Of a DNA stretch of 60,788 bases, positions 11,930 to 40,769 are shown piece after piece (within the stretch, counting starts at the first letter, position 1; each line of letters opens with the position of its first letter). Below the pieces are notes generated by a model. It had not been told where the DNA came from, searched no databases, and worked only from the letters and a program-made list of their open reading frames with translations. This DNA comes from Clostridiales bacterium (GTDB taxonomy: Bacteria > Bacillota > Clostridia > Christensenellales > Pumilibacteraceae): positions 1 to 60,788 of the forward strand of contig JAFLVD010000013.1 in assembly GCA_022508485.1 (NCBI GenBank), in the 5' to 3' direction. The position numbers and the translations under genes were made by a program.

Positions 11930-12391
11930 TTACACAAGCCTGATAAAGCCCGTTTGCCTTAACGCCTCGTACAATACGAGCGCGACGGTGTTGCTTAGGT
12001 TAAGCGAACGAAGCCCCGTCGACATGGGGATTCTCAGCGCGGTCTCGGGATTGGAAAAAATCAAATGCTCGGGAAGTCCTTTCGTTTCCTTCCCGAATAC
12101 GAGATAGTCGTTATCCCTAAACTCAACGTCGGTGTACCTTTTCGCCGCCTTTTTGGACAGATAGAAAAACCTGCCGCCTTTGTTACGGGCAAAAAAGTCG
12201 TCGAGGTTGTCGTAGTATGTAAGATCGAGCTTATCCCAATAATCAAGCCCGGCGCGTTTTAGCTTGGCGTCGGTAATCTCAAACCCCATCGGCTTTACTA
12301 TATGAAGCTTAGCACCGGTGCAGGCGCACGTCCGAGAGATGTTGCCCGTGTTCTGGGGAATCTCCGGCTCTACCAAAACTATATTAAACAT
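11930..12391 (-). CDS. trmL: tRNA (cytidine/uridine-34 2'-O)-methyltransferase
   Basis: A 153-residue SPOUT methyltransferase that methylates the ribose at the wobble base of tRNA-Leu species. The trefoil-knot motifs are complete: NTGNISRTC near residue 14, LVFGKETKGLP near residue 95, and IPMSTGLRSLNLSNTVALVLYE at the AdoMet knot. The size is typical of the family. Its ATG overlaps the last 8 bases of the upstream hydrolase gene, so the two are translationally coupled. Confidence 0.95.
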   Translation of the reverse strand: MFNIVLVEPEIPQNTGNISRTCACTGAKLHIVKPMGFEITDAKLKRAGLDYWDKLDLTYYDNLDDFFARNKGGRFFYLSKKAAKRYTDVEFRDNDYLVFGKETKGLPEHLIFSNPETALRIPMSTGLRSLNLSNTVALVLYEALRQTGFIRLV

Positions 12392-13316: not shown

Positions 13317-13354
13317 ACCGGCCTCCGTTCATAAAAGAATATCAATCGGAGTAT

Positions 13355-13383
13355 AGTATACAGTAATGTACCGTTTATGTCAA
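13355..13383 (-). promoter_or_regulatory. Promoter of the hydrolase-trmL pair
   Basis: On the minus strand TTGACA (13383-13378), a 17-base spacer and TATACT (13360-13355), in the region shared with the divergent murG gene. Confidence 0.88.
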
Positions 13384-13420
13384 GGCTGTGAGTAAAAAAC
13401 GCCTTTTTCGGAGGTGAAAA

Positions 13421-14488
13421 GTGAAGAAAATAGTGTTTACGGGCGGCGGAACCGCAGGACACATAACCCCAAACCTCGCGCTTATCGACGCGCTTAAAGG
13501 TGAATACGAGTGCTTGTACGTGGGAACCGACGGCATGGAAAAAGAGCTGTGCGCAAAAAGAAATATCGCATTTTACGAGGTGCCGGCGGTAAAGCTTCGC
13601 CGCGACGCGTTTTTTAAAAACCTGCTTTTGCCGTTTAAGCTTAGCTCGTGCGTAAAACGCGCCGTAAAAACGTTAAAGCAAGTAAAGCCCGACCTCGTTT
13701 TTTCAAAAGGCGGATACGTCGCGCTTCCCACCGTGCTCGCGGCAAATAAACTTAAAATCCCCGTACTCTGCCACGAGAGCGACATCTCGCCCGGAATTAC
13801 GACCAAAATCACCTCGCGCCGCGCAAAAAAGGTGCTGTGCGCGTTTGAACAAGCGGCAAGCAAATTCGCTCGCGGCGTCTATGTGGGAACGCCAATTCCG
13901 CCTTCCCTCATCTCGTACAAAAAAACAGCTATCGGAAGTAAACCGCGCCTACTTATAATGGGCGGATCGTCGGGCGCCAAAGCGATAAACGACGCGCTTT
14001 CCGCCGCGCTTTACCGCCTTACCGAACGCTTCGACGTGGTGCATATAACGGGCAAAAACAAGGGCGACGATATCCTCGCGCCCGGCTACGAAAAAATCGA
14101 GTTTTGTTCCGACATGCCCAAACTGTACTCATCCGTCGATATCGCCGTATCCCGCGCCGGCGCCAACTCGCTTTTCGAGCTTCTCGTTCTCAAAATTCCG
14201 ACGGTAGCTATTCCGCTCGAAAAAGCGTCGCGCGGCGACCAAATTCAAAACGCCGAATATTTTTACGGCAAGGGCGCGCTATCGGTACTTAGGGAAGGAT
14301 CGCTCACCGCCGACAGTCTTATTGACGCGGTAAACAAAACGTACGACGAGCGCGACTCTATCCGCGCTTCGATTTCCGCCCTTCCCCCAATCGACGGCAC
14401 AAAAAAGATAATCTCGATAATAAAAGAAGTTATAGAAAACAATAACCGCACAATAAAAAGTAGCGAAAACAATTTTTCCGCTACTTAA
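13421..14488 (+). CDS. murG: UDP-GlcNAc:lipid I N-acetylglucosaminyltransferase
   Basis: A 355-residue GT-B enzyme that adds GlcNAc to lipid I to make lipid II on the inner face of the membrane. It shows the N-terminal GGGTAGHITPN loop, GGSSGAKAIND near residue 186, and the UDP-GlcNAc region SRAGANSLFELL with IPLEKASRGDQIQNA. The start is GTG with an excellent GGAGGTGA site 5-6 bases upstream. The gene stands alone, away from any mra/mur/fts cluster. Its last codons form one arm of the terminator used by the convergent purine operon. Confidence 0.96.
   Translation: MKKIVFTGGGTAGHITPNLALIDALKGEYECLYVGTDGMEKELCAKRNIAFYEVPAVKLRRDAFFKNLLLPFKLSSCVKRAVKTLKQVKPDLVFSKGGYVALPTVLAANKLKIPVLCHESDISPGITTKITSRRAKKVLCAFEQAASKFARGVYVGTPIPPSLISYKKTAIGSKPRLLIMGGSSGAKAINDALSAALYRLTERFDVVHITGKNKGDDILAPGYEKIEFCSDMPKLYSSVDIAVSRAGANSLFELLVLKIPTVAIPLEKASRGDQIQNAEYFYGKGALSVLREGSLTADSLIDAVNKTYDERDSIRASISALPPIDGTKKIISIIKEVIENNNRTIKSSENNFSAT
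14454..14486 (-). terminator. Purine-operon terminator inside the murG 3' end
   Basis: AAGTAGCG (14458-14465) pairs perfectly with CGCTACTT (14479-14486) around a 13-base loop. Read on the minus strand it is followed by TTTTTATT. The whole hairpin lies within the last murG codons and touches its stop. On the plus strand no T run follows, so it mainly ends the purine transcript. Confidence 0.8.
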
Positions 14489-14533
14489 TAAATCATTTTA
14501 ACATTAAAGTCGCCGTAGGCAGTGAAGCGTGTT

Positions 14534-14567
14534 AATTTTTATCTCTTATCTCTTATCTCTTATTTAT
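14534..14567. repeat. Short tandem repeat of TATCTCT
   Basis: Three near-perfect copies of TTATCTC in a row in the murG-purL gap. The same AT-rich string recurs at 26056-26150 and 38945-38970, so it may be a dispersed intergenic element. Confidence 0.6.
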
Positions 14568-17500
14568 AATAGTCCACGCCCGACTTAAATATCTTCATAT
14601 CGGTTTCGGCATAGGAATTAACCGCGTTTTTCATCATGAACTCGCCGACGCGCTCGCTGTGTCCCATTTTGCCGAGCACCCTGCCGTCGGGGCTTACGAT
14701 GCCCTCGATGGCGAGCATAGAGCCGTTGGGGTTGTACGGCGACGTCATGGTCGCGTGGCCGTCGGGGTCGCAGTACTGCGTTGCAATCTGACCCTTTTCG
14801 ATAAGCGTTTTAAGCGCGGCGTCGGTCGCTACAAACTTGCCCTCGCCGTGCGACACGGGCACTTTAAACACGTCGCCTACCTTAACGCCGCTCAGCCACG
14901 GGCTTATACCCGTCGCTACGCGGATATCGACGAGCGTCGACACGTGCCTGCCGATATTGTTAAACGTGAGCACGGGGTCGGTGGGCTTGGGCTTGGAGAT
15001 ATGTCCGTACGGTAAAAGTCCCAGTTTTACAAGCGCCTGGAAGCCGTTGCAGATGCCGAGCGCAAGCCCGTCGCGCTTATACAGCAGCTTTTCCACCTCG
15101 TCGGCTATTCTTGCGTTGGAGAAGAACGCCGCAATAAGCTTGGCGCTGCCGTCCGGCTCGTCGCCGCCAGAAAATCCGCCGGGTATAGCGAGTATCTTGC
15201 ACGAGGCAATCGCCTTTGCCATAGCTTTAACCGATTCCTCTACGTCTTTGGGCGAGAGGTTTTTAACGACGAATATTACCGGTTCGGCGCCTGCTTCCTC
15301 GAACTTTTTGGCGGTGTCGATTTCGCAGTTGGTGCCGGGGAACACCGGGATAAACACCTTTATCTTTTGGGGCTTGGGACCTTTTGCGCGCGTACGCTTT
15401 TCGCCATTTCCCGTGTACGAATAGTCCTCGACCTTGCCCTCCGCCTTTGCGGTGGTCGGGTACACGCCCTCGAAGGTCGAAGTAAACGCGGCGATAAGCG
15501 GCGCGCCGTCCACCTTTTTGCCGCCCTCGACGCGGTCGCCGCTTTCCGAGCGAATTACATTCGCGCCGATAAGGAAGCTTCCGTCGTCAGTCGTTACGCC
15601 CAAAAACTCGGGGTCGTAGCCGTAAAAATCCTCGCCGCATTTGGCGGAGAAAATAATATCGCCCACGCGCTCTTCAAACAGGTTGCGGTTATCGTGCGCG
15701 AAAGCAAAGCCGAGCGAGTTTCCGAGACACGATTTTATTATGGTCGCAGCAGCGCCGCCGCGCTCGACCACCGCCGCCGCAGATATGTTGCCGCGGCCTA
15801 TCTCGCCTGCCAAAAGCTTTAAGAAGTCGTTTAGGTTTTCAAAGTCGGGATAGCCGAACTCGTCGCGCTTAATCGAGTATCTGTAAACGCGCTCGCCTGC
15901 CGCGCCGAATACGTTTCCTATCGTAACGGCGCTGTCCATAACGCCGAGGCCGAAGCATATAAGCGTAGGCGGAACGGAAATCTTTTCGAAGGTACCCGAC
16001 ATAGAGTCCTTGCCGCCTATTGCCGCGTGCTTCATCTTTATCTGCGCCGTAAGCGCGCCGAGAAGCGCCGACATGGGCGCGCCCCACTTTTCTGCGTCGG
16101 TGCAGCGCGCGAAAAACTCCTGCATCGTGAGATAGATATTTTCGGGACGAACGCCTGCCGCAACAAGCTTTTCGACGGCGACTATTACCGAATACATACC
16201 GCCGACAAACGGCGACTCGTCGCACAGCATAGGGTCGAAGCCGTGCGAGCTGACCGTACAAAAATCGGTGTTCGCCGGAATTTTAGCCGCCATTACGCTC
16301 GACGGAGTGAGCTGTGTTTTGCCGCCGAACGGCATAAACACGCTGCCTGCGCCGACCGTGGAGTCGAACATTTCGGACAAACCCTTTTGCGAGCAAACGT
16401 TATAGTCTGAAAGAATGCTTTTAATAAGCCCTTCGTAATCACCCTTAGCGTAAAGCGCGGCGCGTTTTGCGCTCATGCTTCCGAAGTACTTGACCGCAGG
16501 GTCTTTTATAAGCGCGTCGGCTTCCTGCCTTACGCCGTTGGAATCGAGAAATTTTCTTTCGAGGTCGACTATAAGATGACCGTTAAGATACATTCTCATT
16601 CTGCCCTTATCGGTAACCTTTGCGATAACGGTGGCGTCCACGTTTTCTTCGTGGCAAAGCTTTTTAAACTCGGCGAGCGTTTCGGGTGAAATGACAACCG
16701 CCATTCTTTCCTGGCTCTCGGATATCGCAAGCTCGGTAGCGGAAAGCCCGGCATACTTTTTGGGCACGTTGCCAAGCTCTATATCAAGCCCGGGCGCAAG
16801 CTCGCCCACCGCGACGGACACGCCGCCTGCGCCGAAGTCGTTGCACCGTTTTATAAGTTTTGTAAACTCGCCGTTACGCATAAGGCGCTGAAGCTTGCGC
16901 TCTATCGGCGCGTTGCCCTTTTGAACCTCCGCGCCGCAAGTTTCTATCGAGTGCGCGTCGTGCGGCTTGCTCGAGCCGGTGGCGCCGCCGCAGCCGTCCC
17001 GTCCGGTCTCGCCGCCGAGAAGAACGACAACGTCGCCAGGTTCGGGGACCTCGCGTATTACGTTTTCCATTTTAGCCGCGCCGACGACAAAGCCGGTTTC
17101 CAGCCGTTTTGCGGCGTAGCCTTTGTGATAGTATTCTTTAACCTCGCCGGTCGCAAGCCCTATCTGGTTGCCGTACGAACTGTAACCCTTTGCGGCGCGC
17201 TTAGATATAACGCGCTGAGGCAGCTTACCTTCTATCGTCTTGTCGAACGGAAGATTGATGTCCGCGGCGCCCGTTACGCGCATTGCCTGGTACACGTACG
17301 CTCTTCCCGATAACGGATCGCGTATAGCGCCGCCCAAACACGTTGCCGCGCCGCCGAACGGCTCTATCTCGGTCGGGTGGTTATGCGTTTCGTTTTTAAA
17401 AAGAACGTACCACGGTTCTACCGTACCGTCGCGCATTACTATGTCCTGCTTTATCGTGCAGGCGTTAATCTCGGGCGACACGTCCTGCGCGGTGGCGTAG

Positions 17501-27237: not shown

Positions 27238-29661
27238 ATGAAGTCAATCGGAAGAAAAATATTATCGGTAGTATTATCGCTCGCCGCCGTTTTCGCGCTG
27301 ACCGCGTTTTTAACAGCCTGCGACGAAGTAATCGAGGAAGTTCCGCAAGGCGACTACGCCCTTTCCTACGCCAGAGGCGCATACCTCGCAACCGGCGTCG
27401 CGCCCCGGACCAAGTACTACGACGAGGGCGAAGAGGTAGTGCTCGCGGCCGCGACAACGTTCGAGTTTGACGGCTACACCTTTGCCGGCTGGAACGACGG
27501 CGAAAACACGTACGACGCAGGCGCGACTTACACCATGCCGGCTCGCGACGTCAAAATGACGGCGCAGTGGACGGAGGGCAATCCCAACAAGTCGATTACG
27601 GTAAGTTCGATGTCGTTCGACGACGGCAAGTTCGTCGTCGAGGGCGAGATCGGTTCGGCGGTAAATAAGCTCGTAATGCACATTCATAACAGCAACAGTC
27701 CCGTCGTCAACTGCGCGTTCGAAGCGGTAATAACCGGAAGCTCTTTCAAAGCGGAAATAGCTCTTTCGTCTATCAAAAACGTGAACGGCGACGTTCCTGC
27801 AAGCTCTGCGTATCTCAACGTTCGCTACGAGCTGAACGACGACGGTTTCGACGGCACTCTCAATCTTTTGCCGAGTCGGGACGGCGCGTTTTCCGTGGGC
27901 GCGACGCACAATTACGACGGCAAAATTTGGACGGTGTATGCGGACAACAGCAGAACGTATTTAATGTGGAAAACGGCGCCCGTTCAGCCCCAGCCCGGCG
28001 ACGGCGACCTTACCGTAAAGGTATCGGCGATGTACTTCGAGACCGCAAAGTTCATTATCGAAGGCGAATGCGGCGAGGACGTCGACACGCTTATTTTCCA
28101 CCTTCACAACAGCAACAACCCCGTTATTAACTACACGTTTAACGCGGTTATATCGGACGGCGAGTATAAAGCCGAGGTTTTGCTTAGCGATATCAGGCGC
28201 GAAAACGGCACCGAACCTATCCAGACCTACATAAACGTCAGATACGAGCGTAACGACGAGGGATATAAAAGCCTCAACCTTTTGCCTGGTACGGACGGCG
28301 ACTACACCGTAGGCGCGGAATACGTTTACGCAGGCAAGCTCTGGACGCTTAACGCCGACAATAACAGAACGTATCTTAACTGCGAAACAACCGACCTTCC
28401 CAATACCGACATGGAAGACGAAGGCGGCGACAAAACCCCCGTCGTAACGGCAGGCAGCATCGGCTTTGACGAAGGATATTTCGTGTTTACCGGGAATATC
28501 GAAAACGTAACAAAGCTCTACGTTTACCTTATAAACACAAACGTTTCGGGCAGTCTCGATAATTACGTGGAAGCGGAAATTGCGGACGGCAGGTTTACCG
28601 CTCGCCTTTCGCTCGATAACCTTATCGGATACAACGTAGGCAACAACATTCCGTTTAACCTCCGCTATAAAATCGACGACCTGTCCGTCGCCACGACAAA
28701 CGTGGCCCAAGGCTCGCTCGATATTACCCAAACCCACACCTACGCCGGAAAGGCGTTTAGGATAGGAATAAACGGCGGCTGCGTCGCGCTCTACTACGAC
28801 GCTGCCCCCACTCCGCCCGAAGAAGGCGACCCCGACTACACCGTAAAAGCAAACTCGATGCGCTTTGAAAGCGGCAAGTTTATCGTCGAGGGCGAAGTCG
28901 GAAAGGACGTAGACAGTCTTGTTTTCCACCTAAACAACACATCCAACCCGGCGTTCGACCTTACCGTAACGGCGGTGATTTCGGAAGGAAGCTATAAGGC
29001 GGAGGTAGCCCTTGCGGACATTAAGCGTCCCGACGGCAGCGACGCCCCTTCCTCGTACATCAATGTTCGGTACGTCTTTAATGACGACAACAACAACGGC
29101 GCGTACTATAATCTTCTGCCCGGAACAAGCGGATCGTTTATCGTCGGACAGGAATACCGATACGGCGACAGAACGTGGACGTTAAAAGCGGACGCTAACA
29201 GAACGTACCTTAATTACAGTGCGGTTACCGACGCGTACCGTATAACAAACGTTAAGCTCGAGCTTGTCGGAGGGGTGCCTACTCTTACTATTTCGGGCAC
29301 GACCACTACTGCGATTGAAGCAAGTCAGTTAAGGCTGCTGCTCGACAAAAACAAGGGCACCACCGAACAGAAGTATATCGAGAACAGCTCTTCGACCGAC
29401 GGAACGTTCAGCTTTACAATCGACCTTACGAATCTTATCCCGTCGGTTGACACGGCAACGCCCGGCGATCAGCAAGCATACTTCATTCGGCTTTATAACG
29501 GTACGAACAAAATTGCCGACCTCAATTCGCGCTGGGCTTCCGACCTGCTCTGGGAAAGAGGACAAATCGAAACGGACGACGCAATTTACTACCTCATGAA
29601 AAACACCGCTTGGGACAACACCGCTTGGAACACCCTCGGCGTCGTTAAGGTCGATAAGTAA
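27238..29661 (+). CDS. Surface lipoprotein with InlB-type repeat and five tandem beta domains
   Basis: An 807-residue exported protein. The signal peptide ends in a lipobox LTAC with Cys28. Residues 42-111 form an InlB B-repeat-like (Listeria-Bacteroides) module with FAGWNDG and TMPARDVKMTAQW. Five tandem domains of about 120-140 residues follow, near 119-247, 258-386, 402-522, 534-662 and 667-806. Domains 1, 2 and 4 are close relatives (KFxxEGExG, NxxNPVxN, YxNVRYExNDxG, LNLLPGxxG, NRTYLNx); 3 and 5 are divergent. The repeat is not one I can name. A binding or adhesive scaffold is the likely role. GGAG lies about 8 bases before the ATG. Confidence 0.75.
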   Translation: MKSIGRKILSVVLSLAAVFALTAFLTACDEVIEEVPQGDYALSYARGAYLATGVAPRTKYYDEGEEVVLAAATTFEFDGYTFAGWNDGENTYDAGATYTMPARDVKMTAQWTEGNPNKSITVSSMSFDDGKFVVEGEIGSAVNKLVMHIHNSNSPVVNCAFEAVITGSSFKAEIALSSIKNVNGDVPASSAYLNVRYELNDDGFDGTLNLLPSRDGAFSVGATHNYDGKIWTVYADNSRTYLMWKTAPVQPQPGDGDLTVKVSAMYFETAKFIIEGECGEDVDTLIFHLHNSNNPVINYTFNAVISDGEYKAEVLLSDIRRENGTEPIQTYINVRYERNDEGYKSLNLLPGTDGDYTVGAEYVYAGKLWTLNADNNRTYLNCETTDLPNTDMEDEGGDKTPVVTAGSIGFDEGYFVFTGNIENVTKLYVYLINTNVSGSLDNYVEAEIADGRFTARLSLDNLIGYNVGNNIPFNLRYKIDDLSVATTNVAQGSLDITQTHTYAGKAFRIGINGGCVALYYDAAPTPPEEGDPDYTVKANSMRFESGKFIVEGEVGKDVDSLVFHLNNTSNPAFDLTVTAVISEGSYKAEVALADIKRPDGSDAPSSYINVRYVFNDDNNNGAYYNLLPGTSGSFIVGQEYRYGDRTWTLKADANRTYLNYSAVTDAYRITNVKLELVGGVPTLTISGTTTTAIEASQLRLLLDKNKGTTEQKYIENSSSTDGTFSFTIDLTNLIPSVDTATPGDQQAYFIRLYNGTNKIADLNSRWASDLLWERGQIETDDAIYYLMKNTAWDNTAWNTLGVVKVDK

Positions 29662-29679
29662 AATCCGTTGCGTAAAATA

Positions 29680-29717
29680 AATCACCTCGTAGCTTTATAC
29701 TACGGGGTGATTTTTTC
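29680..29717 (+). terminator. Terminator of the lipoprotein pair
   Basis: AATCACC plus TCGTAG pairs with CTACGGGGTGATT around a 7-base loop, followed by TTTTTTC. Confidence 0.92.
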
Positions 29718-29769
29718 ATTCGACAAAAATTTGCTATCGGCAAAAACTTTTAAAAATAGAAAAAATACA

Positions 29770-29798
29770 TTGATTTTTTGCCGATAAAGTGATACAAT
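29770..29798 (+). promoter_or_regulatory. fic promoter, predicted leaderless start
   Basis: TTGATT (29770-29775), a 17-base spacer and TACAAT (29793-29798). The ATG starts at 29805, again exactly 6 bases after the -10 box, with only A and T between and no ribosome site. Confidence 0.8.
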
Positions 29799-29804
29799 AA
29801 AAAT

Positions 29805-30680
29805 ATGAAATGTCTATCGGTTGCGCAAGTCGCTAAAAAATGGAATATGTCGGAACGCAGTGTTCGCAATTATTGCGCCGAGGGCAAGGTTGTCGGCGCT
29901 TTCCTTTTGGGAAAAACGTGGCGCATTCCCGAGGACGCCGCAAGACCCGAGCGCGCGAAAGCAACCGCTTCCCTTTTGTCGCGTCTTATTGCCGAAAAAA
30001 ACAGTGCTCTTCACGGCGGAATATACCATAAGGTTCAGATAGAGTTTACCTACAATTCCAATCATATCGAGGGCAGCCGTTTAACTCACGACCAAACGCG
30101 TTATATCTTCGAAACAAACACAATAGGTATCGAAGGACAAGTGCGCGCGGACGACATTATAGAAACGGCAAATCATTTTAAGTGTATCGATATGATTTTG
30201 GAAAACGTAAATAAAAAGCCGACCGAAGGCTTTATAAAAGAGCTGCACCGCGTGCTTAAAAACGGAACGAGCGACAGCAGAAAAAATTGGTTTGCGGTAG
30301 GCGATTACAAAAAGCTTCCAAACGAAGTCGGCGGACGAAATACCGCAAGCCCCGAAGCCGTAGCAACCGAAATGAAAAAGCTTCTCGCCTCGTACAACTT
30401 GGCGCAAACAAAAACTCTCGACGACATTTTGGACTTTCATTACAGGTTCGAGCGCATTCACCCATTTCAGGACGGCAACGGCCGTATAGGCAGACTCATT
30501 CTGTTTAAAGAGTGCTTAAAACACAACGTCGTCCCTTTTATAATCGACGAGGAATTAAAGCTGTTTTACTACCGCGGACTGGCGGAATGGGAAAACGAGC
30601 GCGGCTATCTGCGCGAAACATGCCTAGCCGCGCAGGATAAGTTTAAAGCATGGCTCGACTACTTTAAGATAAAATATTAA
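29805..30680 (+). CDS. HTH-Fic protein, probable self-inhibited AMP transferase
   Basis: A 291-residue protein. Residues 3-42 form an excisionase/MerR-like helix-turn-helix (SVAQVAKKWNMSERSVRNYC). The rest is a Fic domain whose complete active motif HPFQDGNGRIGR is at residues 219-230; the invariant His is H219. SNHIEG at residues 85-90 fits the (S/T)xxxE(G/N) inhibitory helix, so activity is probably held down by E89. Such enzymes move AMP from ATP to Ser, Thr or Tyr of target proteins. The DNA-binding part suggests self-regulation or a DNA-associated target. There is no toxin or antitoxin partner gene, and the inhibitory motif is in the same chain. Confidence 0.88.
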   Translation: MKCLSVAQVAKKWNMSERSVRNYCAEGKVVGAFLLGKTWRIPEDAARPERAKATASLLSRLIAEKNSALHGGIYHKVQIEFTYNSNHIEGSRLTHDQTRYIFETNTIGIEGQVRADDIIETANHFKCIDMILENVNKKPTEGFIKELHRVLKNGTSDSRKNWFAVGDYKKLPNEVGGRNTASPEAVATEMKKLLASYNLAQTKTLDDILDFHYRFERIHPFQDGNGRIGRLILFKECLKHNVVPFIIDEELKLFYYRGLAEWENERGYLRETCLAAQDKFKAWLDYFKIKY

Positions 30681-30736: not shown

Positions 30737-31903
30737 TTACACGCGTTTGCCGTAAAGCTTTATTCCTTTTACAAAGCGGTTTAATCCGTCCATTACGCGC
30801 GCTCTCGGGCAGGCGGCGTTAAGGCGGATAAAGTGCGCGCCGTCGCCGCGGTACTGCTTACCCGAAGAAACGACAAGCCCCGTCTTTTCGCGAATAAATG
30901 CGGTCAGCTCGTCCGAATCGGCGGTGTACGCGCCGCAGTCTATCCAAATAACGTACGTAGCTTCCGCCTCGACAACCTTTATTTCGGGAAGATGTTCTTT
31001 AAGATATTCGGTGATAATCCGTCTGTTTTCGAAAAGGTATGCGCGAAGCTCGTTATGCCACTCTTCGCCTTTTGTCAGCGCGGCGACCGTCGCGTCGATT
31101 GCAAAGCAGTTGGGTTCGGCGACGTCGTCGCTGTTAAGACCGCGCACCACCTTTTCCCTCAGCGACTTGTTGGGAATAACGACGGCGGCGGCTTGAAGCC
31201 CGGGAATACTAAACGCCTTGCTCGCCGCAATGCACGTAATGCTTATATCCTTGTTTACTTCGTTAACCGAGGCGAACGGCACGTAGCCGACTCCGGGCGC
31301 GGTGAGGTCGCAATGAATCTCGTCGGACAAAACGACAACGCCGTGCTTTTTGCAAAGGGCGCCCACTTTTTTAATCTCTTCCCTCGTCCAGATGTTTCCG
31401 GTCGGGTTGTGCGGATTGCAAAATACGAGCATTGTGGTAAGCGAATCGGAAAGCGTTTTTTCGAGCGCCTTAAAGTCTATTTTGTACGTGCTGTCATTAT
31501 AGACGAGAGTGCATTCTTTGACGAACCGTCCGCCGTTTTCTATGGAATTATAAAAATTATTGTAAGCCGGCGTCAACACAGCGACCCTGTCGCCGTGGTT
31601 GGTAACGCGCTTTACTATGCTCGAAATTGCCGGAACAACGCCGGTGCAAAATTGCAGCCATTCCTTTTCGATTGTAAGCCCGTGGCGGCGCCCCCACCAA
31701 GATATAAACGCGTCGTACCATCTGTCGGGCACAATCGCATAGCCGAAAACGCCGTGCTGCGCTCTTTTTATAAGCGCCTCTCTGATAGCCGGCGCGGTCA
31801 TAAAATCCATATCAGCAACCCACATGGGAAGCTCGCCTTCGCCTACGTCCCATTTAAGCGAATCGGTACCCTTTCTTTCGGGTGCGTTGTCGAAATCAAA
31901 CAT
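30737..31903 (-). CDS. patB: PatB/MalY-type cystathionine beta-lyase or aminotransferase
   Basis: A 388-residue fold-type I PLP enzyme. It begins FDNAPERKGTDSLKWD with PMWVADMDF, typical of PatB/MalY. NPHNPTG binds the cofactor ring region, and the Schiff-base Lys is in AASKAFSIPGLQ. The usual reaction is C-S beta-elimination from cystathionine or cysteine conjugates, giving pyruvate, ammonia and a thiol. Its ATG overlaps the last 8 bases of the DUF3737 gene, so the two are coupled. It lies near the cysteine synthase fusion, which is consistent with sulfur amino acid metabolism. Confidence 0.9.
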   Translation of the reverse strand: MFDFDNAPERKGTDSLKWDVGEGELPMWVADMDFMTAPAIREALIKRAQHGVFGYAIVPDRWYDAFISWWGRRHGLTIEKEWLQFCTGVVPAISSIVKRVTNHGDRVAVLTPAYNNFYNSIENGGRFVKECTLVYNDSTYKIDFKALEKTLSDSLTTMLVFCNPHNPTGNIWTREEIKKVGALCKKHGVVVLSDEIHCDLTAPGVGYVPFASVNEVNKDISITCIAASKAFSIPGLQAAAVVIPNKSLREKVVRGLNSDDVAEPNCFAIDATVAALTKGEEWHNELRAYLFENRRIITEYLKEHLPEIKVVEAEATYVIWIDCGAYTADSDELTAFIREKTGLVVSSGKQYRGDGAHFIRLNAACPRARVMDGLNRFVKGIKLYGKRV

Positions 31904-32750
31904 TTTTATCCTTCCTGATGATAACGACCGTTTTAGTCGGGTCGATTTTATCCTTTTGTAAAATAAGCTCGCCTATCTCGTCCGCGGCGATTGTTCCGCC
32001 CGTCGGATTAAGAACGCTGTCGATTTTTCCGTCGATATCGGCGTCGACCGTGGAATACTCAAAAGCAAGCGTAGTGTTAACCGCTTTACAGTTTTTCATA
32101 ACGAGGTTATCTATGTAGCAAAGCCCTTGAAGGCTCTCTATCGTGCAGTTTATAAGCGTAAGGTTTCTGGCATTCCAGCCGAGATACTCGCCCGAGATAA
32201 CCGAGTCGTAAACGGTAATGTTTTCGCTGTTCCAAAACGCGTCCTTTGTCATAAGCGTAGAATTGCGAATGACGATATTTTTCGCGCCGTCGAACGCGTA
32301 GTTTCCGACAAGATTAAGCCCGTCGATTTCCATATCCTCGCAGTTCATCGCAAGGTAATCGCCGCCTAACGCCTTTACGCCGTACAATTTGACGTTTCGG
32401 CAGTTCCAAAACGTTTCCGCGGCGTTCGTCAGCTCGACGTTTTCAAGCGTTATATTCGACGCGCGGCGAAACGTTTTAGGCGCGTGAATAACCGTGTTTT
32501 TAATCGTTATATTATGCGTATACCATATACCGGCGCGAGCGGTTTCGGTAAGAGAGCAGTCCTCGACGCGGATATTTTCGGAATACCAAAGCGGATATTT
32601 CCACTCGAACGAGCTATTGATTAGCTCGACGTTTCGGCTATGTTTAAGCGGCGACTCGCCGTCAAAGAAAACGCAATCCTCTATATGTAAATCTCTTGCG
32701 AAAAACAGCGCGCGTTCCCCTGTTAACTTTTGATTTTTTATTTCCTTCAT
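31896..32750 (-). CDS. DUF3737 family beta-helix protein
   Basis: A 284-residue soluble protein. It starts with the family signature GERALFFARDL, FFDGESPLKHSRN, and is followed by regular 20-25-residue coils of the IxxDxxI/NxxLxN type (NITLENVEL, NVKLYGVKAL, NIVIRNSTL, NLTLINCTI), the mark of a right-handed parallel beta helix. Its biochemical role is not known to me. There is no signal peptide. It is the first gene of a two-gene unit with patB. The ribosome site is weak. Confidence 0.85.
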   Translation of the reverse strand: MKEIKNQKLTGERALFFARDLHIEDCVFFDGESPLKHSRNVELINSSFEWKYPLWYSENIRVEDCSLTETARAGIWYTHNITIKNTVIHAPKTFRRASNITLENVELTNAAETFWNCRNVKLYGVKALGGDYLAMNCEDMEIDGLNLVGNYAFDGAKNIVIRNSTLMTKDAFWNSENITVYDSVISGEYLGWNARNLTLINCTIESLQGLCYIDNLVMKNCKAVNTTLAFEYSTVDADIDGKIDSVLNPTGGTIAADEIGELILQKDKIDPTKTVVIIRKDKNV

Positions 32751-32953: not shown

Positions 32954-32982
32954 TTGACACATATTTGAAGTTATGTTACAAT
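32954..32982 (+). promoter_or_regulatory. Promoter of the cysteine synthase fusion
   Basis: TTGACA (32954-32959), a 17-base spacer and TACAAT (32977-32982). GGAGG at 33002-33006 precedes ATG 33013 by 6 bases. Confidence 0.9.
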
Positions 32983-33012: not shown

Positions 33013-34617
33013 ATGAAACGCAGAAAACCGTTGTTTATAACGTTTTGCGCACTGTTCGGAACGTTTTCGTTTATAGCGCTGTACGCACTTATAATCTTCT
33101 CGGCGGTTATGGGATCCGATTTAAAATCGGCGGAGTATTACGGCAATCCGGATAACTACGTACAAAAAGATTGTACGATAACCGCTATAAATGCCGGCGG
33201 ATACAACAACGACAGTATAAGACTTATCGTAAGGTTCAGCGAAAACAAGTTTACCGACTACTCCTTTACCATCGGCGGTCAAAATTACGTTACCGTAGAA
33301 AAGCGCGGACTTCTCGACGTGCTCGAGGAAGATACGCAAGCCACTATTTGGGTTGCGAAGGATTATGCCTACGGCGATATGTACTGGCATGACGAATTAG
33401 CCGGAATAACGTATAAAGGCGAGAACTTCCTCTACTATATAAACGGGGCCGCGCAGATTTCCGAAAGGTATCTCGAAGCCTACAACGAGGAACATATCGC
33501 GCAGATTGTATTCGGCGTAATATTTGCCGTTACCTCGCTTCTGTTTATCGCCGACTTTATCATATACTTTGTAATCGCAAAGCCGACGGACAAAGATAAA
33601 GCCCAAAAACCGAAAGTGCAGGCGACGCCCGATATTAAGAACTCGGTCGAGCAGTTAATCGGAAACACGCCGCTCGTCCGTCTCGAAAAGACGGAAAGAT
33701 TAAACGCGTCGAGGGCAAGCCTTTACGCAAAGCTCGAAATGCTCAACCCGTCGGGTTCGGTTAAAGACCGCGCCGCGCTCACAATGATATACGACGCCGA
33801 AAACCGCGGACTTCTTTCCCCCGGCGCAACCATAGTCGAGCCGACAAGCGGCAACACGGGAATAGGTCTTGCAATGATAGCGGCAAGGCGCGGATACAAG
33901 CTTATACTTACTATGCCGGACACTATGTCCGTCGAGCGCCAAAAACTGTTAAAAGCATACGGCGCGGAAATAATTTTAACGGAAGGAAGTCGCGGCATGA
34001 AAGGCGCTGTCGAGCGCGCGCAAATGCTTAAAGCGGAAATAGGCGCGTTTATGCCCGAACAGTTTACCAACCAGGCAAACCCCAACGCACACTACACCTC
34101 GACAGGTCCCGAAATTTGGCGCGACACCGCGGGCGGCGTAGATATCCTCGTCGCAGGCGTAGGCACCGGCGGAACAATTTCGGGCGCAGGCAGATACCTT
34201 AAAGCCCAAAAAAGCGATGTTAAAGTAGTCGCCGTCGAGCCTAAGTCCTCCCCCGTTCTCTCCGGCGGAAGCGCCGGCGCGCACGGCATACAAGGTATCG
34301 GCGCCGGGTTTATCCCGTCCGCTCTCGACAGGTCGGCATACGACGAAGTGTTTACGGTTACAGACGAGCAAGCGTATATTGCGGCAAGACAGCTCGCAAA
34401 AACGGAAGGACTGCTCGTAGGCATAAGCTCGGGCGCGGCGCTTCACGCGGCGATAGAGCTGTCGAGAATGGAAGCGAACGCCGGCAAAAACATCGTCGTA
34501 ATTCTTCCCGACAGCGGCGACAGATACCTCTCCACACCGCTGTACGGCGAGGAACCCGTCGAGGGACCGCCTACCCCTGCCCAAAAACCGAGGAAAAAGA
34601 AAAATGAAGCGGAATAA
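33013..34617 (+). CDS. Membrane-tethered cysteine synthase (ectodomain-CysK fusion)
   Basis: A 534-residue fusion. The basic N-terminus (MKRRK) is cytoplasmic. TM1 spans about 7-33, a 130-residue extracytoplasmic domain with YYGNPDNY follows, TM2 spans about 164-188, and a charged linker (DKDKAQKPK) leads to a full O-acetylserine sulfhydrylase at about 208-515. The enzyme has the PLP Lys in NPSGSVKDR (K251), TSGNTG (278-283), GTGGTIS (384-390) and LPDSGDRYLST. All key residues are present, so activity is likely, at the inner face of the membrane. The next gene encodes the membrane module alone. An earlier in-frame start at 32929 overlaps the promoter and is rejected. Confidence 0.93.
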   Translation: MKRRKPLFITFCALFGTFSFIALYALIIFSAVMGSDLKSAEYYGNPDNYVQKDCTITAINAGGYNNDSIRLIVRFSENKFTDYSFTIGGQNYVTVEKRGLLDVLEEDTQATIWVAKDYAYGDMYWHDELAGITYKGENFLYYINGAAQISERYLEAYNEEHIAQIVFGVIFAVTSLLFIADFIIYFVIAKPTDKDKAQKPKVQATPDIKNSVEQLIGNTPLVRLEKTERLNASRASLYAKLEMLNPSGSVKDRAALTMIYDAENRGLLSPGATIVEPTSGNTGIGLAMIAARRGYKLILTMPDTMSVERQKLLKAYGAEIILTEGSRGMKGAVERAQMLKAEIGAFMPEQFTNQANPNAHYTSTGPEIWRDTAGGVDILVAGVGTGGTISGAGRYLKAQKSDVKVVAVEPKSSPVLSGGSAGAHGIQGIGAGFIPSALDRSAYDEVFTVTDEQAYIAARQLAKTEGLLVGISSGAALHAAIELSRMEANAGKNIVVILPDSGDRYLSTPLYGEEPVEGPPTPAQKPRKKKNEAE

Positions 34618-35191
34618 AACAATTTTCATTTGGCTTTGCATAGTTTTCGGAATGATTTGCGGTGTCGCTCTTTTGGCTTCCTGTCTGATTATGGTTTTAA
34701 TGGGGCCGGATATCGGCTCGGGTAAATATTACGACAATCCGGACAATTACGATACAATAGACTGTAAAATAACATACTTCGTAGTTTCGTCCGAGTACGA
34801 AACATATTACCTCGATTTAGAGCTGATTACCGTTCCTCCTCACCGTGCATATGTTGATTCAAGCTTCCGTATAGACGGCGACAACTATGCTGTGGCACAA
34901 AAAAACGGGATTGAAGATAATCTCAAGGAAGAAACGGAAGTGCAGATAAAGGTTGCAAGCAAATATCTCGGCGACGGGTGGATATACCCCATCGCCGGAC
35001 TTACTTGTAACGGAGTCGATTATCTCCCGTTTGAAGTCGGGTACAAAAACATAGCAAAATATCAATACGAGGCAGGACGCAAAGCGACCGTTGCTATTTC
35101 AATCAGCGGCTCTGCCTTGCTATTGGGACTGCTTCTTCTCGGCGCAAACTTTATTATATTTTTCAAAGTCGCAAAGCCCGATGGGGTGTAA
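34604..35191 (+). CDS. Free-standing paralogue of the cysteine synthase membrane module
   Basis: A 195-residue membrane protein with TM1 about 7-32 and TM2 about 160-187 around an extracytoplasmic domain. It aligns over its whole length with the first 190 residues of the preceding fusion: YYxNPDNYxxxDCxIT, a middle with DGDNYAVxxKNG, the AGLTCNGVDYL region, and the end FKVAKP against YFVIAKP. It starts 14 bases inside the preceding gene with GAGG upstream, so translation is coupled. I do not recognise the extracytoplasmic domain. The two copies could form a complex in the membrane. Confidence 0.8.
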   Translation: MKRNKTIFIWLCIVFGMICGVALLASCLIMVLMGPDIGSGKYYDNPDNYDTIDCKITYFVVSSEYETYYLDLELITVPPHRAYVDSSFRIDGDNYAVAQKNGIEDNLKEETEVQIKVASKYLGDGWIYPIAGLTCNGVDYLPFEVGYKNIAKYQYEAGRKATVAISISGSALLLGLLLLGANFIIFFKVAKPDGV

Positions 35192-35245: not shown

Positions 35246-35277
35246 AAAAGGTCTGTTTTTCAGACCTTTTTGTTTTT
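35246..35277. terminator. Strong bidirectional terminator
   Basis: A 10-base-pair perfect stem AAAAGGTCTG (35246-35255)/CAGACCTTTT (35261-35270) with a 5-base loop, followed by TGTTTTT on the plus strand. It serves the fusion operon and the convergent transporter gene. Confidence 0.92.
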
Positions 35278-35280: not shown

Positions 35281-36093
35281 TTATTCTTTGGTTTCGGGCT
35301 GTTCGGTCGTCGGCTTTTCCGTCTTTTTCTTCCCTAACCTAAACGAGAGCAGGAAGCAGACCGCTATAAACGCGCCGCCTATTATGTTTCCTATCGTAGA
35401 TGGAAGCAAGCAGTACAGCAGCGAATTTCCGAGCGTGAGATTTGCCGCGCCGCCCGTAAGCGCGTTTTGAATAAGCCCTGCCGTAAGGTAGTACATGTTT
35501 GCAACGGAGTGTTCGAAGCCGCACGCGACGAAAGCGAACACGGGAAGATAGAGCGCGAGTATTTTCCCTGCCGCGGTTTTAGACGACATTGCCGCCCACA
35601 CCGCAAGGCACACGAGCATGTTGCACAGCACTCCGCGAAGCACCGCCTCGCCGAAGTTCATTGTGCTCTTTGCAGTCGCCGTAGCGATAACCGCCGCGGA
35701 AGTTGCGTCGTTTAAAATTCCGCTCGTAGTAACAAGAACGGCTATTAAAACGCCGCCGATTAAATTTCCGAGGTAGACAATACCCCAGTTTTTAAGCATG
35801 CCGCCAACCGTTATTTTTCGCTCGATTAAAGGCGAGACGAGCAGGCAGTTGCCGGTAAAAAGCTCTGCGCCGCAAAGCACGACGAGTATAAGTCCTACGG
35901 GGAACACCGCCCCCTTAATCGCCGCCGCGCCGCCGCCCGTAAAGCCTACGGACGCCGCGGTGGACGCCGCCGCGCCGAATGCGATAAACGCGCCTGCGAG
36001 TACGGCAAGCACCAACGCCTTATACCATTTTTGCGACGTTTTCGCTTTGGCGACGGTTATGTAGTTATCGGCGATTTCGCTCGGGGTAAACAT
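35281..36093 (-). CDS. Formate/nitrite transporter family channel
   Basis: A 270-residue inner-membrane protein with six hydrophobic segments. It begins TPSEIADNY, and GAELFTGNCLL, NLIGG and CGFEHSVANMYY match the FocA/NirC/FdhC channel family, including the central His region. The cargo could be formate, nitrite or hydrosulfide; the sequence does not decide. The charged C-terminal tail is rich in Lys, Glu and Thr. ATG 36093 has AAGGAGA 4 bases upstream and lies 22 bases after the leuS stop, so it is probably cotranscribed with leuS. Fhs in this window uses formate. Confidence 0.93.
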   Translation of the reverse strand: MFTPSEIADNYITVAKAKTSQKWYKALVLAVLAGAFIAFGAAASTAASVGFTGGGAAAIKGAVFPVGLILVVLCGAELFTGNCLLVSPLIERKITVGGMLKNWGIVYLGNLIGGVLIAVLVTTSGILNDATSAAVIATATAKSTMNFGEAVLRGVLCNMLVCLAVWAAMSSKTAAGKILALYLPVFAFVACGFEHSVANMYYLTAGLIQNALTGGAANLTLGNSLLYCLLPSTIGNIIGGAFIAVCFLLSFRLGKKKTEKPTTEQPETKE

Positions 36094-36115
36094 GTTTCTC
36101 CTTTGTGTGAAAAGA

Positions 36116-38530
36116 TCAAACGACAAAGTTTATAAGCCGTTCGGGAATGACTATTATCTTTTTGGGCGCAACGCCGCCGAGAACGGAATTCACTTCTTCG
36201 TTCTTTAACGCGAGCGATTTTATCTCGTCAACCGAAATGCCCTGCGGAAGGGTTATCTTGCACTTTATCTTGGAATTTACCTGCACGGCGTATTCCGTTA
36301 CGGACTTTACGAGTTTGCTCTCGTCGCAAACGGGATACTTTTCGAGCATGAGCGACTTTTTGCCGCCCATAAGCGAATTAAGCTCTTCGCAAAAATGCGG
36401 CGCGAGAGGCGCCATAAGCTTTACGAGAACACCTAACGCGTATTTAAGGTACTTGGGGTTGTAATTGCTTTCCGAGCGGTACTTATACATGGCGTTTACG
36501 AGTTCCATGCACCTTGCCACAGCCGTGTTAAAGTGGAAGTCGGGAATGTCTTCCAAAACCTTTTTAATGCAGTAGTTAAGCTCGTAGTCGAGCGCGCCGG
36601 CTTTGTCGTCGGCTTTTTCGTCCTTAACCTCTATAACGAGCCGCTCGATTCTGTCCATAAACTTAGAGCACGAAGCGATTCCGCCGTCCGACCACGGTCC
36701 GCCCTCGGTGTAGTCGAAGCCGAACATAAGGTACAGCCTTAGCGCGTCCGAGCCGTATTTTTCGATTAACGGGTCCGCGGAAATTACGTTGCCGCGCGAC
36801 TTACTCATTCTCATTCCGTCTGGACCGAGAATAACGCCCTGGTGAACAAGCCGTTTAAACGGCTCGTCGAAGTTTATATAACCGAGGTCGTGTAAAACCT
36901 TCGTTATAAACCGCGAATACAGCAAGTGGCTGCACGCGTGTTCCGCCCCACCGACGTAGCAGTCGACGGGAAGCAGCTTGTTGACGATATCCGAATCGAA
37001 GGGCGCTTTATCGTTGTGCGCGTCGGGATAGCGAAGGTAATACCAGCTCGAACACACAAACGTGTCGAGAGTATCGCTCTCGCGCCGAGCTTTTTTTCCG
37101 CACACCGGGCAGGTGCAGTTTATAAACTCTTCGTTAGACCTAAGCGGCGATTTTCCGTCGGGTGTGAAGTTTACGTCGTAAGGAAGCTCGACGGGCAGGT
37201 CATTTTCTGGTACTGGCACCGCGCCGCAGTGCTCGCAGTAGATAATGGGTATCGGCGCGCCCCAATAGCGCTGGCGTGAAACAGACCAGTCGCGCATACG
37301 GTAGTTAACCTTTTTGCCGCCGTGTCCCGTTTTTTCAAGCTCGGCAAGAATAGCCGGAATGGCGTCCTTGCTCTTCATTCCGTCGAACTTGCCGGAAGAA
37401 GTAAGCACGCCGTAATCGGTGTAAGGAAGTTCGCCCTTCCCGTCCTCGGCGTTAATTACGCGCACAATCTTCATGCCCTTTTTGACGGCAAAGTCGTAGT
37501 CGCGCGTATCGTGCGCCGCAACGCCCATAACCGCGCCCGTGCCGTACGAATTAAGGCAGTAGTCGGCAACGAGTACGGGCACCTTCTGACCGTTAAGCGG
37601 ATTTATGCAGTACGCGCCGATAAACTCGCCCGTCTTGTCCTTGCTCGTCGAAGTGCGCTCTATGTCCGTTCGCTTTGCGGCGGCGGCAACATATTCCTCC
37701 ACCGCCGCTTTATATTTGGGCGTGGTGAGTACCTTTACGTACGGATGCTCGGGCGCGAGAACTACGTACGTTACGCCGAACAACGTGTCCGCGCGCGTAG
37801 TGAACACCTTAATCGTTTTAACGTCGCCCTTAGGCTTAACGAGATCGAAATGCACCTCGCCGCCCACCGACTTGCCTATCCAGTTGCGCTGCATGGTTTT
37901 GGTCTTTTCGGGCCAGTCGAGCTTGTCGATGCCTTCGAGAAGCTTTTCGGCGTAGTCGGTTATCTTAAAGAACCACTGGGTCATCTCTTTATGGACGACC
38001 TCGCTCTTACAGCGCTCGCACTTACCGTCTACGACCTGCTCGTTGGCTATAACGGTCTGGCACGACGGGCACCAGTTGACGGGCGCCTTTTTCTGATAGC
38101 ACAGTCCGTTTTTATAGAGCTGCAAAAACAGCCACTGCGTCCACTTGTAGTAGTCGGGACGGCAGGTGTAAATTTCGTGCGACCAGTCGAACATAACGCC
38201 CATGTCGGATAACTGCCGTTCCATTGTCGCTATGTTCTTGTCGGTTGAATCCTTGGGGTGAATTCCCGTCTTTATGGCAAAGTTTTCGGCAGGCAGACCG
38301 AACGCGTCGAAGCCCATGGGCTGAAACACGTTTTTTCCCTGCATGCGCATAAACCGCGCGTAGCTGTCCGAAACGCCGTAGTTGTACCAGTGCCCCATGT
38401 GAAGCTGTGCGCCCGACGGGTACGGCAGCATTTCGAGCACGTAGCACTTTTCTCCGCCCTCGTGAAAGGTGTTTATGCCCTGCTCGGCCCAAATCTTTTG
38501 CCACTTTCTTTCAATCTCGTTGTGATCCAT
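36116..38530 (-). CDS. leuS: Leucyl-tRNA synthetase
   Basis: An 804-residue class I synthetase. The HIGH motif appears as HMGH in [13 protein letters not shown] zinc-ribbon pair (CPSCQTV, CERC) lies in the insertion, the editing domain has the [14 protein letters not shown] region, and KMSKS appears as [12 protein letters not shown] 38530 is chosen because it begins 6 bases after the -10 box, with no ribosome site and no usable upstream start outside the promoter. Translation would therefore be leaderless. The transporter gene follows. Confidence 0.96.
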
Positions 38531-38536: not shown

Positions 38537-38565
38537 ATAATACCACACAACACTTTTACTGTCAA
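38537..38565 (-). promoter_or_regulatory. leuS promoter, predicted leaderless start
   Basis: On the minus strand TTGACA (38565-38560), a 17-base spacer and TATTAT (38542-38537), then 6 bases to ATG 38530. Confidence 0.85.
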
Positions 38566-38599
38566 TAAAATCGTTGTAAGCGAATTATTGCGTATCGTG

Positions 38600-38905
38600 T
38601 ATGATATTTAGATTCCTCACTATCTTAACGACGCAAATCCATTATTACCGCCCACCCCGTCATTTCGACCGAAGCCGAACGCAGTAAGACGTAGCGGAGG
38701 TCAGGCGTTAGCCGCACAAATAATAATTGCAAACAACCGTGCGGCGGTTCGCCTAGATTCCTCGACTTCGCTCGGGATGATGCGGTAAGAGCATTAACGT
38801 TTTATTTAAGCATAGCCGCGTTTTATTCTGTATCTAATCTTGTCCTACGTAACAACCGAAGGTTATTCCGAGCGAAGCAAAGGGTCTCTACCCCAATGCC
38901 GCCCG
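38600..38905. repeat. Cluster of dispersed palindromic repeat units
   Basis: This gene-free stretch holds pieces of an intergenic repeat type common in many bacteria. TCATTTCGACCGAAG (38660-38674) faces CTTCGCTCGGGATGA (38766-38780). A third related unit, TTATTCCGAGCGAAGC, begins at 38863. A 7-base-arm hairpin GCCGCAC/GTGCGGC (38711-38745) lies between the first two. No coding potential or transposase was seen. Confidence 0.65.
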
Positions 38906-38907
38906 AC

Positions 38908-38935
38908 AAAAAAAAAGAACCGCGATGCGGTCCTT
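38908..38935 (-). terminator. alaS terminator
   Basis: ACCGC/GCGGT with flanking pairs and a GAT loop. On the minus strand it is followed by nine T residues; the plus side is also T-rich. Confidence 0.85.
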
Positions 38936-38984
38936 ATTTTTTAATTTTTATCTCTTATCTTTTATCTTAGCCGCGACGAGGCGC

Positions 38985-40769
38985 TTATTCTTTCGGTTCC
39001 AACACGGCTTTGATTCGTCTGACGCCGGCAGAGCTGCTTTGCTCTTTTACTATGCGAAAGCGGCCGAGTTCGCCAGTTCTCGATGCGTGGGGGCCGCCGC
39101 AGATTTCCTTAGAGTACTCGCCCATGGTGTACACCTTGACTTTTTCGCCGTACTTACTCGTAAACAAGCCGACCGCGCCCTGCGCCTTCGCTTCTTCCAC
39201 CGTCATTTCCTCGCACGTTACGGGAACGTCGGCGGCGATAGCTTCGTTTACCTTGTCCTCTACCGCCTTTACTTCCTCGGGGGTCATCGCCCTGCCGAAC
39301 GAAAAATCGAAGCGCAATCTTTCGGGCGTGATATTGGATCCGCGCTGATTGACGTTGGGGTCGTTAAGCACCTGCTTTAACGCTTTGTGCATAAGGTGCG
39401 TCGCCGTGTGAAGCCTTGCGGTTAATTCGCCGGTGTCGGCAAGTCCGCCCTTAAAGCGCTGTTCGGCGCCTGCGTGCGAAAGGTTTTTATGCTCTTCGAA
39501 CCGCGCGTTAAAGCCGTCTACGTCCACCTTAAAACCGCGCTCTCGCGCAAGCTCGATCGTCATTTCGAGCGGAAAACCGTACGTGTCGTACAGACGGAAC
39601 GCGCTCTTTCCCGGTATGGTGTCGCCTTGAAGGTACTTGCAAAGCTTTTCGAATTCCTTCATTCCGTTTTCGAGCGTACGCGAAAAGCGCGCGTATTCCT
39701 CGTCGATTTCGGTTTTTACTTTGTCGCGCGCGGCGGCAAGCTCGGGATAAACGTCCTTGTAAATATCGACGACGGTATTTGCAATCTCGGAGTAATCGCC
39801 TTCTTTTAAGCCTATCGTGCCGCCGAAGCGGATTGCTCTGCGAAGCAGCCGCCTTAGAATATAGCCCTGGTCGACGTTACTCGGCGTTACGCCGCGCTCG
39901 TCGCCTATGATAAACGTCGAAGTGCGGATATGGTCGGCAACGACGCGAAGCGCCTTCACCTCTTCCTCTGTGCCGTTAAATTCGCCAAGCTCTTTTATTT
40001 TTTCGACGATAGGCACGAACACGTCGGTTTCGTACACGCTTTTAAGCCCCTGAATATTCATAAGCGCGCGCTCTAAGCCCATGCCGGTGTCTACGTTCTT
40101 TTGTTTAAGCGGACTGAAACTGCCGTCGGCGTTTTTATTGAACTGCATAAAGACGTCGTTCCAGATCTCGATATACTTGCCGCAGTCGCATGCCGGCGAG
40201 CAATTTCCCGAGCACTTAGGCTTTCCCGTGTCGAAGAACATCTCGGTATCGGGACCGCACGGACCTGTCTGACCGGCAGGGCCCCACCAGTTATGCTTTT
40301 TGCCGAGGTAGAAAATATTCTCTTTTTTAATACCGCACTTTTCCCAGAGCGCGGCGGTTTCCTCGTCGCGCGGACAGTCCTTGTCGCCCTCGAAAACGGT
40401 TACGGCAAGTCTGTCGGGCGATAGGCCCAGTTCCTTAGTCAAAAACTCGTAACTCCACGGCACCATTTGCTCTTTGAAATAGTCGCCGAGACTCCAGTTG
40501 CCGAGCATTTCGAAAAACGTGCAGTGGCTGCTGTCCCCAACCTCGTCGATATCGCCCGTTCTTACGCACTTTTGCGTGTCGCAAAGCCGCTTTCCGCTCG
40601 GGTGCGGCTGACCGAGAAGGTACGGAACAAGGGGGTGCATACCGGCCGTAGTAAACAGTACGGTAGGGTCGTTCTCGGGTATGAGCGAGGCGGAAGAAAT
40701 GGGTGCGTGTCCGCGCTCGACAAAAAACTTTATCCATTTTTTGCGAAGAGAATCGCTTGTCAGTTTCAT
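38985..40769 (-). CDS. alaS: Alanyl-tRNA synthetase, short form without C-Ala domain
   Basis: A 594-residue class II synthetase. The catalytic core is normal (FTTAGMHPLVPYLLG, HCTFFEMLGNWSLGDYFK, VDTGMGLERA). The editing domain is also present, with the zinc-type HTATHLMH and CGGPHASRTGELG. The chain stops soon after, so the roughly 270-residue oligomerisation and C-Ala (DHHA1) part of a usual 870-residue AlaRS is missing. The stop is followed by a proper terminator, so this does not look like a recent truncation. An insertion rich in Cys (CSGNCSPACDCG) lies near residue 186. GGAGAG precedes the ATG. Confidence 0.93.
   Translation of the reverse strand: MKLTSDSLRKKWIKFFVERGHAPISSASLIPENDPTVLFTTAGMHPLVPYLLGQPHPSGKRLCDTQKCVRTGDIDEVGDSSHCTFFEMLGNWSLGDYFKEQMVPWSYEFLTKELGLSPDRLAVTVFEGDKDCPRDEETAALWEKCGIKKENIFYLGKKHNWWGPAGQTGPCGPDTEMFFDTGKPKCSGNCSPACDCGKYIEIWNDVFMQFNKNADGSFSPLKQKNVDTGMGLERALMNIQGLKSVYETDVFVPIVEKIKELGEFNGTEEEVKALRVVADHIRTSTFIIGDERGVTPSNVDQGYILRRLLRRAIRFGGTIGLKEGDYSEIANTVVDIYKDVYPELAAARDKVKTEIDEEYARFSRTLENGMKEFEKLCKYLQGDTIPGKSAFRLYDTYGFPLEMTIELARERGFKVDVDGFNARFEEHKNLSHAGAEQRFKGGLADTGELTARLHTATHLMHKALKQVLNDPNVNQRGSNITPERLRFDFSFGRAMTPEEVKAVEDKVNEAIAADVPVTCEEMTVEEAKAQGAVGLFTSKYGEKVKVYTMGEYSKEICGGPHASRTGELGRFRIVKEQSSSAGVRRIKAVLEPKE

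Follow-up and report, generated by a model that had tools for sequence, protein, structure and literature searches.

A membrane-tethered cysteine synthase and its free-standing partner, a possible orphan immunity-type pair in two species of one Clostridiales genus

Cysteine synthase (O-acetylserine sulfhydrylase, CysK) is treated as a soluble house-keeping enzyme. In a 60,788-nucleotide stretch of contig JAFLVD010000013.1 (assembly GCA_022508485.1; hereafter the window) from a Clostridiales bacterium of the family Pumilibacteraceae, we find a complete CysK domain joined in frame to a membrane module, made up of two transmembrane (TM) segments and an intervening domain predicted to lie outside the cell. 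The next gene encodes a free-standing paralogue of that module, and the same arrangement occurs in a second species of the genus. Our tentative explanation, which we place just short of an even chance, is a pair of orphan membrane proteins of immunity type, of which one has come to bear the cell's CysK at the cytoplasmic side. The enzyme itself is of a known kind, and the anchor would be immunity-like by its gene context only. The fused architecture seems undescribed in the open-licence literature searched: no bacterial membrane-bound or fused cysteine synthase was found by title or abstract start, and no title matched an immunity protein fused to a metabolic enzyme or OB-fold immunity to metalloproteases. 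The words 'cysteine synthase domain' do occur in one paper on an oomycete (PMC2705460).

The fusion gene and its parts, with residue numbers of the predicted protein, are as follows.

33013..34617, plus strand: fusion gene, 534 residues, TM, predicted extracytoplasmic OB-like domain, TM, linker, CysK
33025..33126, plus strand: first TM segment, residues 5-38 by hydropathy (helix 5-32 in the structure model)
33127..33489, plus strand: ectodomain, residues 39-159, OB-like in the model (36-137), 9 K/R and 19 D/E
33490..33585, plus strand: second TM segment, residues 160-191 by hydropathy (one long helix 142-188 in the model)
33586..33633, plus strand: linker, residues 192-207, from sequence and charge count
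33646..34548, plus strand: CysK domain, residues 212-512, from TIGR01139, PF00291 and conserved motifs

The start codon is taken as ATG 33013, with GGAGG upstream; a longer alternative frame opens at GTG 32929, and the ATG is preferred because that frame begins ahead of a promoter-like site at 32954-32982. The CysK part scores 442.8 bits against TIGR01139 over the full domain (residues 213-511; curated cut-off 350.95) and 265.3 bits against PF00291 (residues 212-500). It retains K251 of VKDR, TSGNTG at 278, GTGGTI at 384, GISSGAA at 470 and PDSGDRY at 499, motifs whose catalytic roles we take from general knowledge of the family. Of 76 near-invariant columns, defined on 32 other CysK sequences after excluding three long-branch rows, 75 are kept in both known fusions, the window protein having I for V in one. 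The reading made earlier from the sequence alone, of a TM-ectodomain-TM module fused to a complete CysK, is thus borne out.

The charge distribution (N-terminus 4 K/R and no D/E, ectodomain 9 and 19, linker 5 and 3) leads us to infer a protein with both termini inside and the intervening domain outside. In the structure model that domain appears to resemble an OB-fold. No family exceeded its cut-off for the ectodomain in Pfam, NCBIfam or PADLOC, and Pfam searches with nine proteins of the ectodomain family gave DUF4307 at E 0.0032 as their best match, for one protein only; the profile and structure comparison suggested by the sequence-only reading gave a predicted fold and no family name. PADLOC also placed neither of the two window proteins in a known defence-system family.

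The second gene and the putative control sites of the pair are these.

34604..35191, plus strand: partner gene, 195 residues, free-standing paralogue of the membrane module, overlapping the fusion gene by 14 bases
32954..32982, plus strand: sigma-70-type promoter-like site TTGACA-17-TACAAT, 11 of 12 consensus bases, a consensus match only
35246..35270, no strand assigned: terminator-like hairpin, with T-runs on either strand, separating the operon from a convergent channel gene

Residues 1-191 of the fusion align with residues 1-192 of the partner at 37% identity (BLASTP E 4e-28), and the partner has TM segments at about 4-39 and 160-192 by hydropathy, which confirms the free-standing copy claimed at the outset. 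These two are the only copies of the membrane module in the window's genome (E <= 10). Together the genes look like a two-gene operon. Hexamers like those of the promoter-like site also lie upstream of the fusion in the second species, and the 14-base overlap is kept there and might favour a fixed ratio of fusion to partner. The signal matches are to be read against chance, with 8 promoter-like sites found in the stretch where 3.4 would be expected and 3 terminator-like sites where 4.6 would be expected. At Rfam gathering scores only three tRNAs were found in the window, and no riboswitch or T-box. A CysK-binding peptide at the partner's C-terminus, considered for the DGV ending in the window, was dropped since the partner of the second species ends in KPRE.

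The second species is represented by contig JAFLVE010000011.1 of a metagenome-assembled genome (G007; locus L003). Its fusion is 89% identical to that of the window, and the neighbouring genes are shared as well. An assembly error, the condition under which the fusion was to be dismissed, is rejected by the presence of the same join in this genome. The proposed survey for the fusion found it in 2 of 74 family genomes by ectodomain search, the window's included; weak matches in five genomes (G033, G036, G071, G019 and G022) were dropped as other proteins by sequence. A profile search of the same 74 genomes also yielded free-standing proteins of the family in other places, and none of those read was another fusion. 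Searching 41 genomes for CysK/CysM-type proteins (E <= 1e-40) gave 38 matches in 36 genomes, of which 30 were read with their N-terminus and the other 8 lie in open frames of at most 490 residues; G075 and G081 were left out of the loci examined. The fusion is the only such match in the window's genome (G000; 2.07 Mb in 59 contigs, 95.8% complete) and in that of the second species, and the membrane module is absent from all 28 other CysK loci read. At two of these (L020 and L039), where the start codon is unsure, the domain is preceded in frame by a short hydrophobic segment. In a CysK tree the fusions of the two species group together with full support (100/100) on a long stem (0.7); the bootstrap had yet to settle and the deeper branching order is not fixed, so that this tree does not decide whether the fused CysK was inherited vertically in the genus.

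Divergence between the two species is uneven along the operon, with one segment far less diverged than the rest of the fusion gene.

33013..33714, plus strand: low-divergence segment, codons 1 to about 234 of the fusion gene

For codons 1-190 the synonymous divergence (dS) is 0.11 and the nonsynonymous divergence (dN) 0.019. The corresponding values for the CysK part are 0.54 and 0.08, and in four neighbouring genes dS is 0.43-0.60 with dN/dS 0.06-0.12. At a dN/dS of about 0.15, the CysK part is under purifying selection, as judged from the sequence comparison. Fourfold-degenerate sites differ at 8 of 76 positions in codons 1-205 compared with 222 of 748 in the four flanking genes (Fisher p 2.3e-4), while in codons 241-515 they differ at 49 of 137, not distinguishable from the neighbours (p 0.16); the best single breakpoint falls at codon 234 (222-236). 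The intergenic DNA upstream is clearly more diverged than the anchor cassette, and the pattern as a whole points to a recent exchange of that cassette, including the join, between the species. The two partner proteins, by contrast, share only about 40-43% identity, and their dS is not computable. GC content is 0.446 in the anchor, 0.435 in the partner, 0.563 in cysK and 0.509 in the window. Fast change of one copy combined with exchange of the other would fit a pattern common in conflict genes.

The ectodomain family is rare and un-named. Its profile matched in 10 of 396 genomes of the order, 3 of which were set aside (G162, G205 and G228, partial matches in open frames of 576-1482 residues); in 3 of 391 of the class, the window included; in none of 398 of the phylum beyond the window's own match; and in 9 of 74 of the family. 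Two of the last were set aside, one a partial match in a 1030-residue frame (G023) and the other an FtsQ-like protein adjoining ftsA and ftsZ (G043), its profile E of 2e-8 notwithstanding. These genome draws overlap one another. Those read range from 138 to 298 residues and are either TM proteins or lipoproteins, and none of the 12 outside the two fusion-bearing genomes is fused to an enzyme.

Two of those 12 directly follow and overlap the 3' end of Rhs genes, a position typical of immunity genes. In a genome of the same genus (G015, locus L059) the homologue at 8736-9248 overlaps the end of a 2326-residue Rhs open reading frame (ORF), and in another family (G111, locus L056) the homologue at 9517-9990 overlaps an Rhs-core ORF. 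The L059 locus holds Rhs-type ORFs in tandem (1766-9248 and 9686-15898; 2326 and at least 2070 residues), the homologue following the first. By chance about 0.014 Rhs neighbours would be expected for 12 members, and two or more with a probability near 1e-4, a rough estimate from the Rhs counts of 13 genomes that takes genes to be randomly ordered and spaced at one to the kb. Downstream of the Rhs core the toxin ends of the two loci are 47% identical. A search with these ends gave 16 matches in 15 of 396 order genomes, and H-E-x-G-H-x-x-Q with a later E occurs in the 12 of 16 that could be aligned by length, rows L092-L095 being too short or too divergent for the alignment. The gene downstream of the 16 ends is a clear family member in two cases and, by reading, a lipoprotein in five (L083, L091, L092, L093 and L095), the rest having other genes or none listed; a TM protein in this position at L087 reaches the ectodomain profile at E 0.003 only. 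One toxin type with several kinds of downstream partner is not unusual among polymorphic toxins. Other contexts of family members, named from their sequences, include an array of small membrane proteins (L058), a recombinase (L054), a Phd/VapC-like pair (L098) and ordinary genes.

The window pair does not lie directly 3' of an Rhs toxin gene. Neither incomplete fusion-bearing genome has a toxin end of the HExxH type, and that of the window has no Rhs-core match; in the second species a single Rhs-core match with an internal stop lies near a contig start (G007:C2:464-727, L151). As far as these genomes tell, the pair would be an orphan. A mobile-element origin was considered and dropped: the partner had no match in plasmid and phage collections, and of 37 viral-contig stretches that matched the search pattern none encoded a relative.

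We propose an immunity role because in two relatives the adjoining gene encodes an Rhs protein ending in an HExxH, zinc-peptidase-like domain. The two products of the operon would be membrane proteins of the same family, each with its N- and C-terminus in the cytoplasm and the OB-like domain predicted outside, where it may bind and block a toxin exported by competing bacteria. In-frame fusion of the first gene to cysK would then have followed in one lineage, leaving the enzyme, its active site kept, at the inner side of the membrane on a linker of roughly 20 residues, presumably as the cell's working and only detected O-acetylserine sulfhydrylase. The likeliest effect of the tether may be indirect, in that it would tie a dispensable protective module to an enzyme that is hard to lose, and we favour the enzyme keeping a protective gene from loss over the tether helping the enzyme. 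The stronger form, in which welding an orphan immunity protein to an essential enzyme has fixed the protective gene, always expressed and not losable, is improbable on present evidence; if true, it would be a novel route by which hosts fix conflict genes, and the location of the enzyme might be part of the defence.

Two neighbouring genes frame the operon and lie outside the system.

31896..32750, minus strand: DUF3737 gene, divergent neighbour
35281..36126, minus strand: channel of the formate/nitrite-transporter (FNT) family, convergent neighbour

On the two sides of the operon, no more than about 1.2 kb away, are the FNT gene and a gene for a PatB-type C-S lyase. A relative without a fusion at this place (G006, locus L128) has leuS, FNT, DUF3737 and patB in the order of the window, with a 343-residue protein at the operon position (Na/phosphate-cotransporter-like by reading) and cysK elsewhere. 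The operon was thus gained at this site, or replaced there by another gene; the direction is not proven. At all 14 other cysK loci of the genus, as far as they reach, cysK is without the window's neighbours. Further differences are seen along the flanks. Between leuS and alaS the second species has two large ORFs (L003 15734-21381; 1070 and 788 residues, surface-type by reading) that are missing from the window at 38548-38985. The alanyl-tRNA-synthetase-like ORF that follows in the window (38985-40769) has only 594 residues, the usual enzyme being longer. Conversely, two window ORFs at 27238-30680, an 807-residue putative lipoprotein with several similar repeats and a 291-residue ORF with a Fic-like HPFxDGNGR motif (both by reading), are absent from between the flanking genes in the second species.

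The main rival of the immunity-pair reading is a neutral or nearly neutral fusion, in which an upstream gene for a small membrane protein lost its stop codon, leaving a working enzyme on a purposeless tether and a module whose role is unrelated to toxins. We consider this somewhat unlikely. The very narrow distribution of the fusion, a CysK part that evolves about like its neighbours and the 10 of 12 other family members without an Rhs neighbour all speak for it, but the cassette has been kept in two species and looks recently exchanged while the partner changed. That CysK is itself the guarded partner is very improbable. On this view, since some toxins, such as CdiA-CT of E. coli 536, need CysK for their activation, a tether between the only CysK and an immunity protein would keep toxin, activator and blocker together. 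Toxin activation by CysK is established (PMC5562914) and the genome has a single CysK match, yet the immunity-like domain is predicted outside and CysK inside, no search having been aimed at toxins whose tail binds CysK.

The remaining two explanations develop suggestions of the sequence-only reading. Local sulfur chemistry, with a tethered CysK capturing sulfide or O-acetylserine at a channel and the FNT protein serving as a hydrosulfide channel, draws on the nearness of the FNT and C-S lyase genes and on the fusion being the only CysK match. We give it a slender chance. Among solved structures the FNT protein scores higher with LCIA (156.4 bits) and FocA (125.3) than with the 3td/3te entries (at most 106.7), among which we take the hydrosulfide channel to be, sequence scores of this kind not telling substrate. 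The FNT gene is also convergent and behind the terminator-like hairpin, and since it sits with DUF3737 and patB in a relative without the operon, these genes were probably not gained with the fusion. About as doubtful is a sensor, in which the TM helices would relay ligand binding at the ectodomain to CysK and so change its activity or its binding of partners. Many ligands are known for OB domains, and the modelled continuous helix 142-188 would lead from the ectodomain into the second TM segment; against this stand the K-rich linker of about 20 residues between that segment and CysK, the lack of a regulatory gene in the operon and the absence of enzyme fusions among the 12 other members. Neither local sulfide handling nor an enzyme used as signal output is supported, and the label of receptor fits poorly with a family whose other members are lipoproteins or small membrane proteins, two being placed like immunity genes behind Rhs genes, a context not visible in the window's sequence.

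If the sole CysK detected in a lineage is tethered to the membrane, that lineage would test whether cysteine synthesis needs free diffusion of the enzyme or its complex with CysE. With an anchor of immunity-like kind, central metabolism would be connected to conflict between bacteria. The analysis also outlines a small family of OB-like anchored proteins, some of which follow Rhs toxins.

Among known systems, the enzyme part is close to CysK as defined by TIGR01139, in its whole domain and its near-invariant columns, and differs in about 207 extra N-terminal residues with two TM segments. E. coli CysE binds CysK by a C-terminal Ile. CysE is present in the window's genome, and none of the nine CysE tails read (that of the window's genome, L109, and eight relatives, L101-L108) ends in Ile, the tails being charged; three further loci gave none. 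Forming a complex with CysE is not required for membership in CysK. A link between CysK and inter-bacterial competition is known from CdiA-CT, for which CysK is a permissive factor; toxin and CysE there bind CysK via their C-terminal tails (PMC5562914). The HExxH domain at the end of the Rhs proteins beside family members resembles the Tox-MPTase/zincin toxin domains, which occur in Rhs proteins (PMC3482391). As a pair of membrane proteins, putatively orphan and in an immunity-type role, the window pair can be likened to ExiC/ExiD of Staphylococcus, which confer immunity to an exported toxin and are often orphan; those proteins are polytopic and tied to an LXG toxin of the type VII secretion system, the likeness is one of description rather than sequence comparison, and the available excerpt mentions no enzyme fusion (PMC12744356). 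The nearest parallel in gene arrangement is with Rhs immunity proteins such as Serratia RhsI, through the two free-standing relatives that overlap the 3' end of Rhs genes, and orphan, exchangeable Rhs immunity genes are described there (PMC10539506). In contrast to those proteins, the window pair has no toxin gene beside it and belongs to an un-named, membrane-anchored family with its domain predicted outside the cell, one copy of which is fused to an enzyme.
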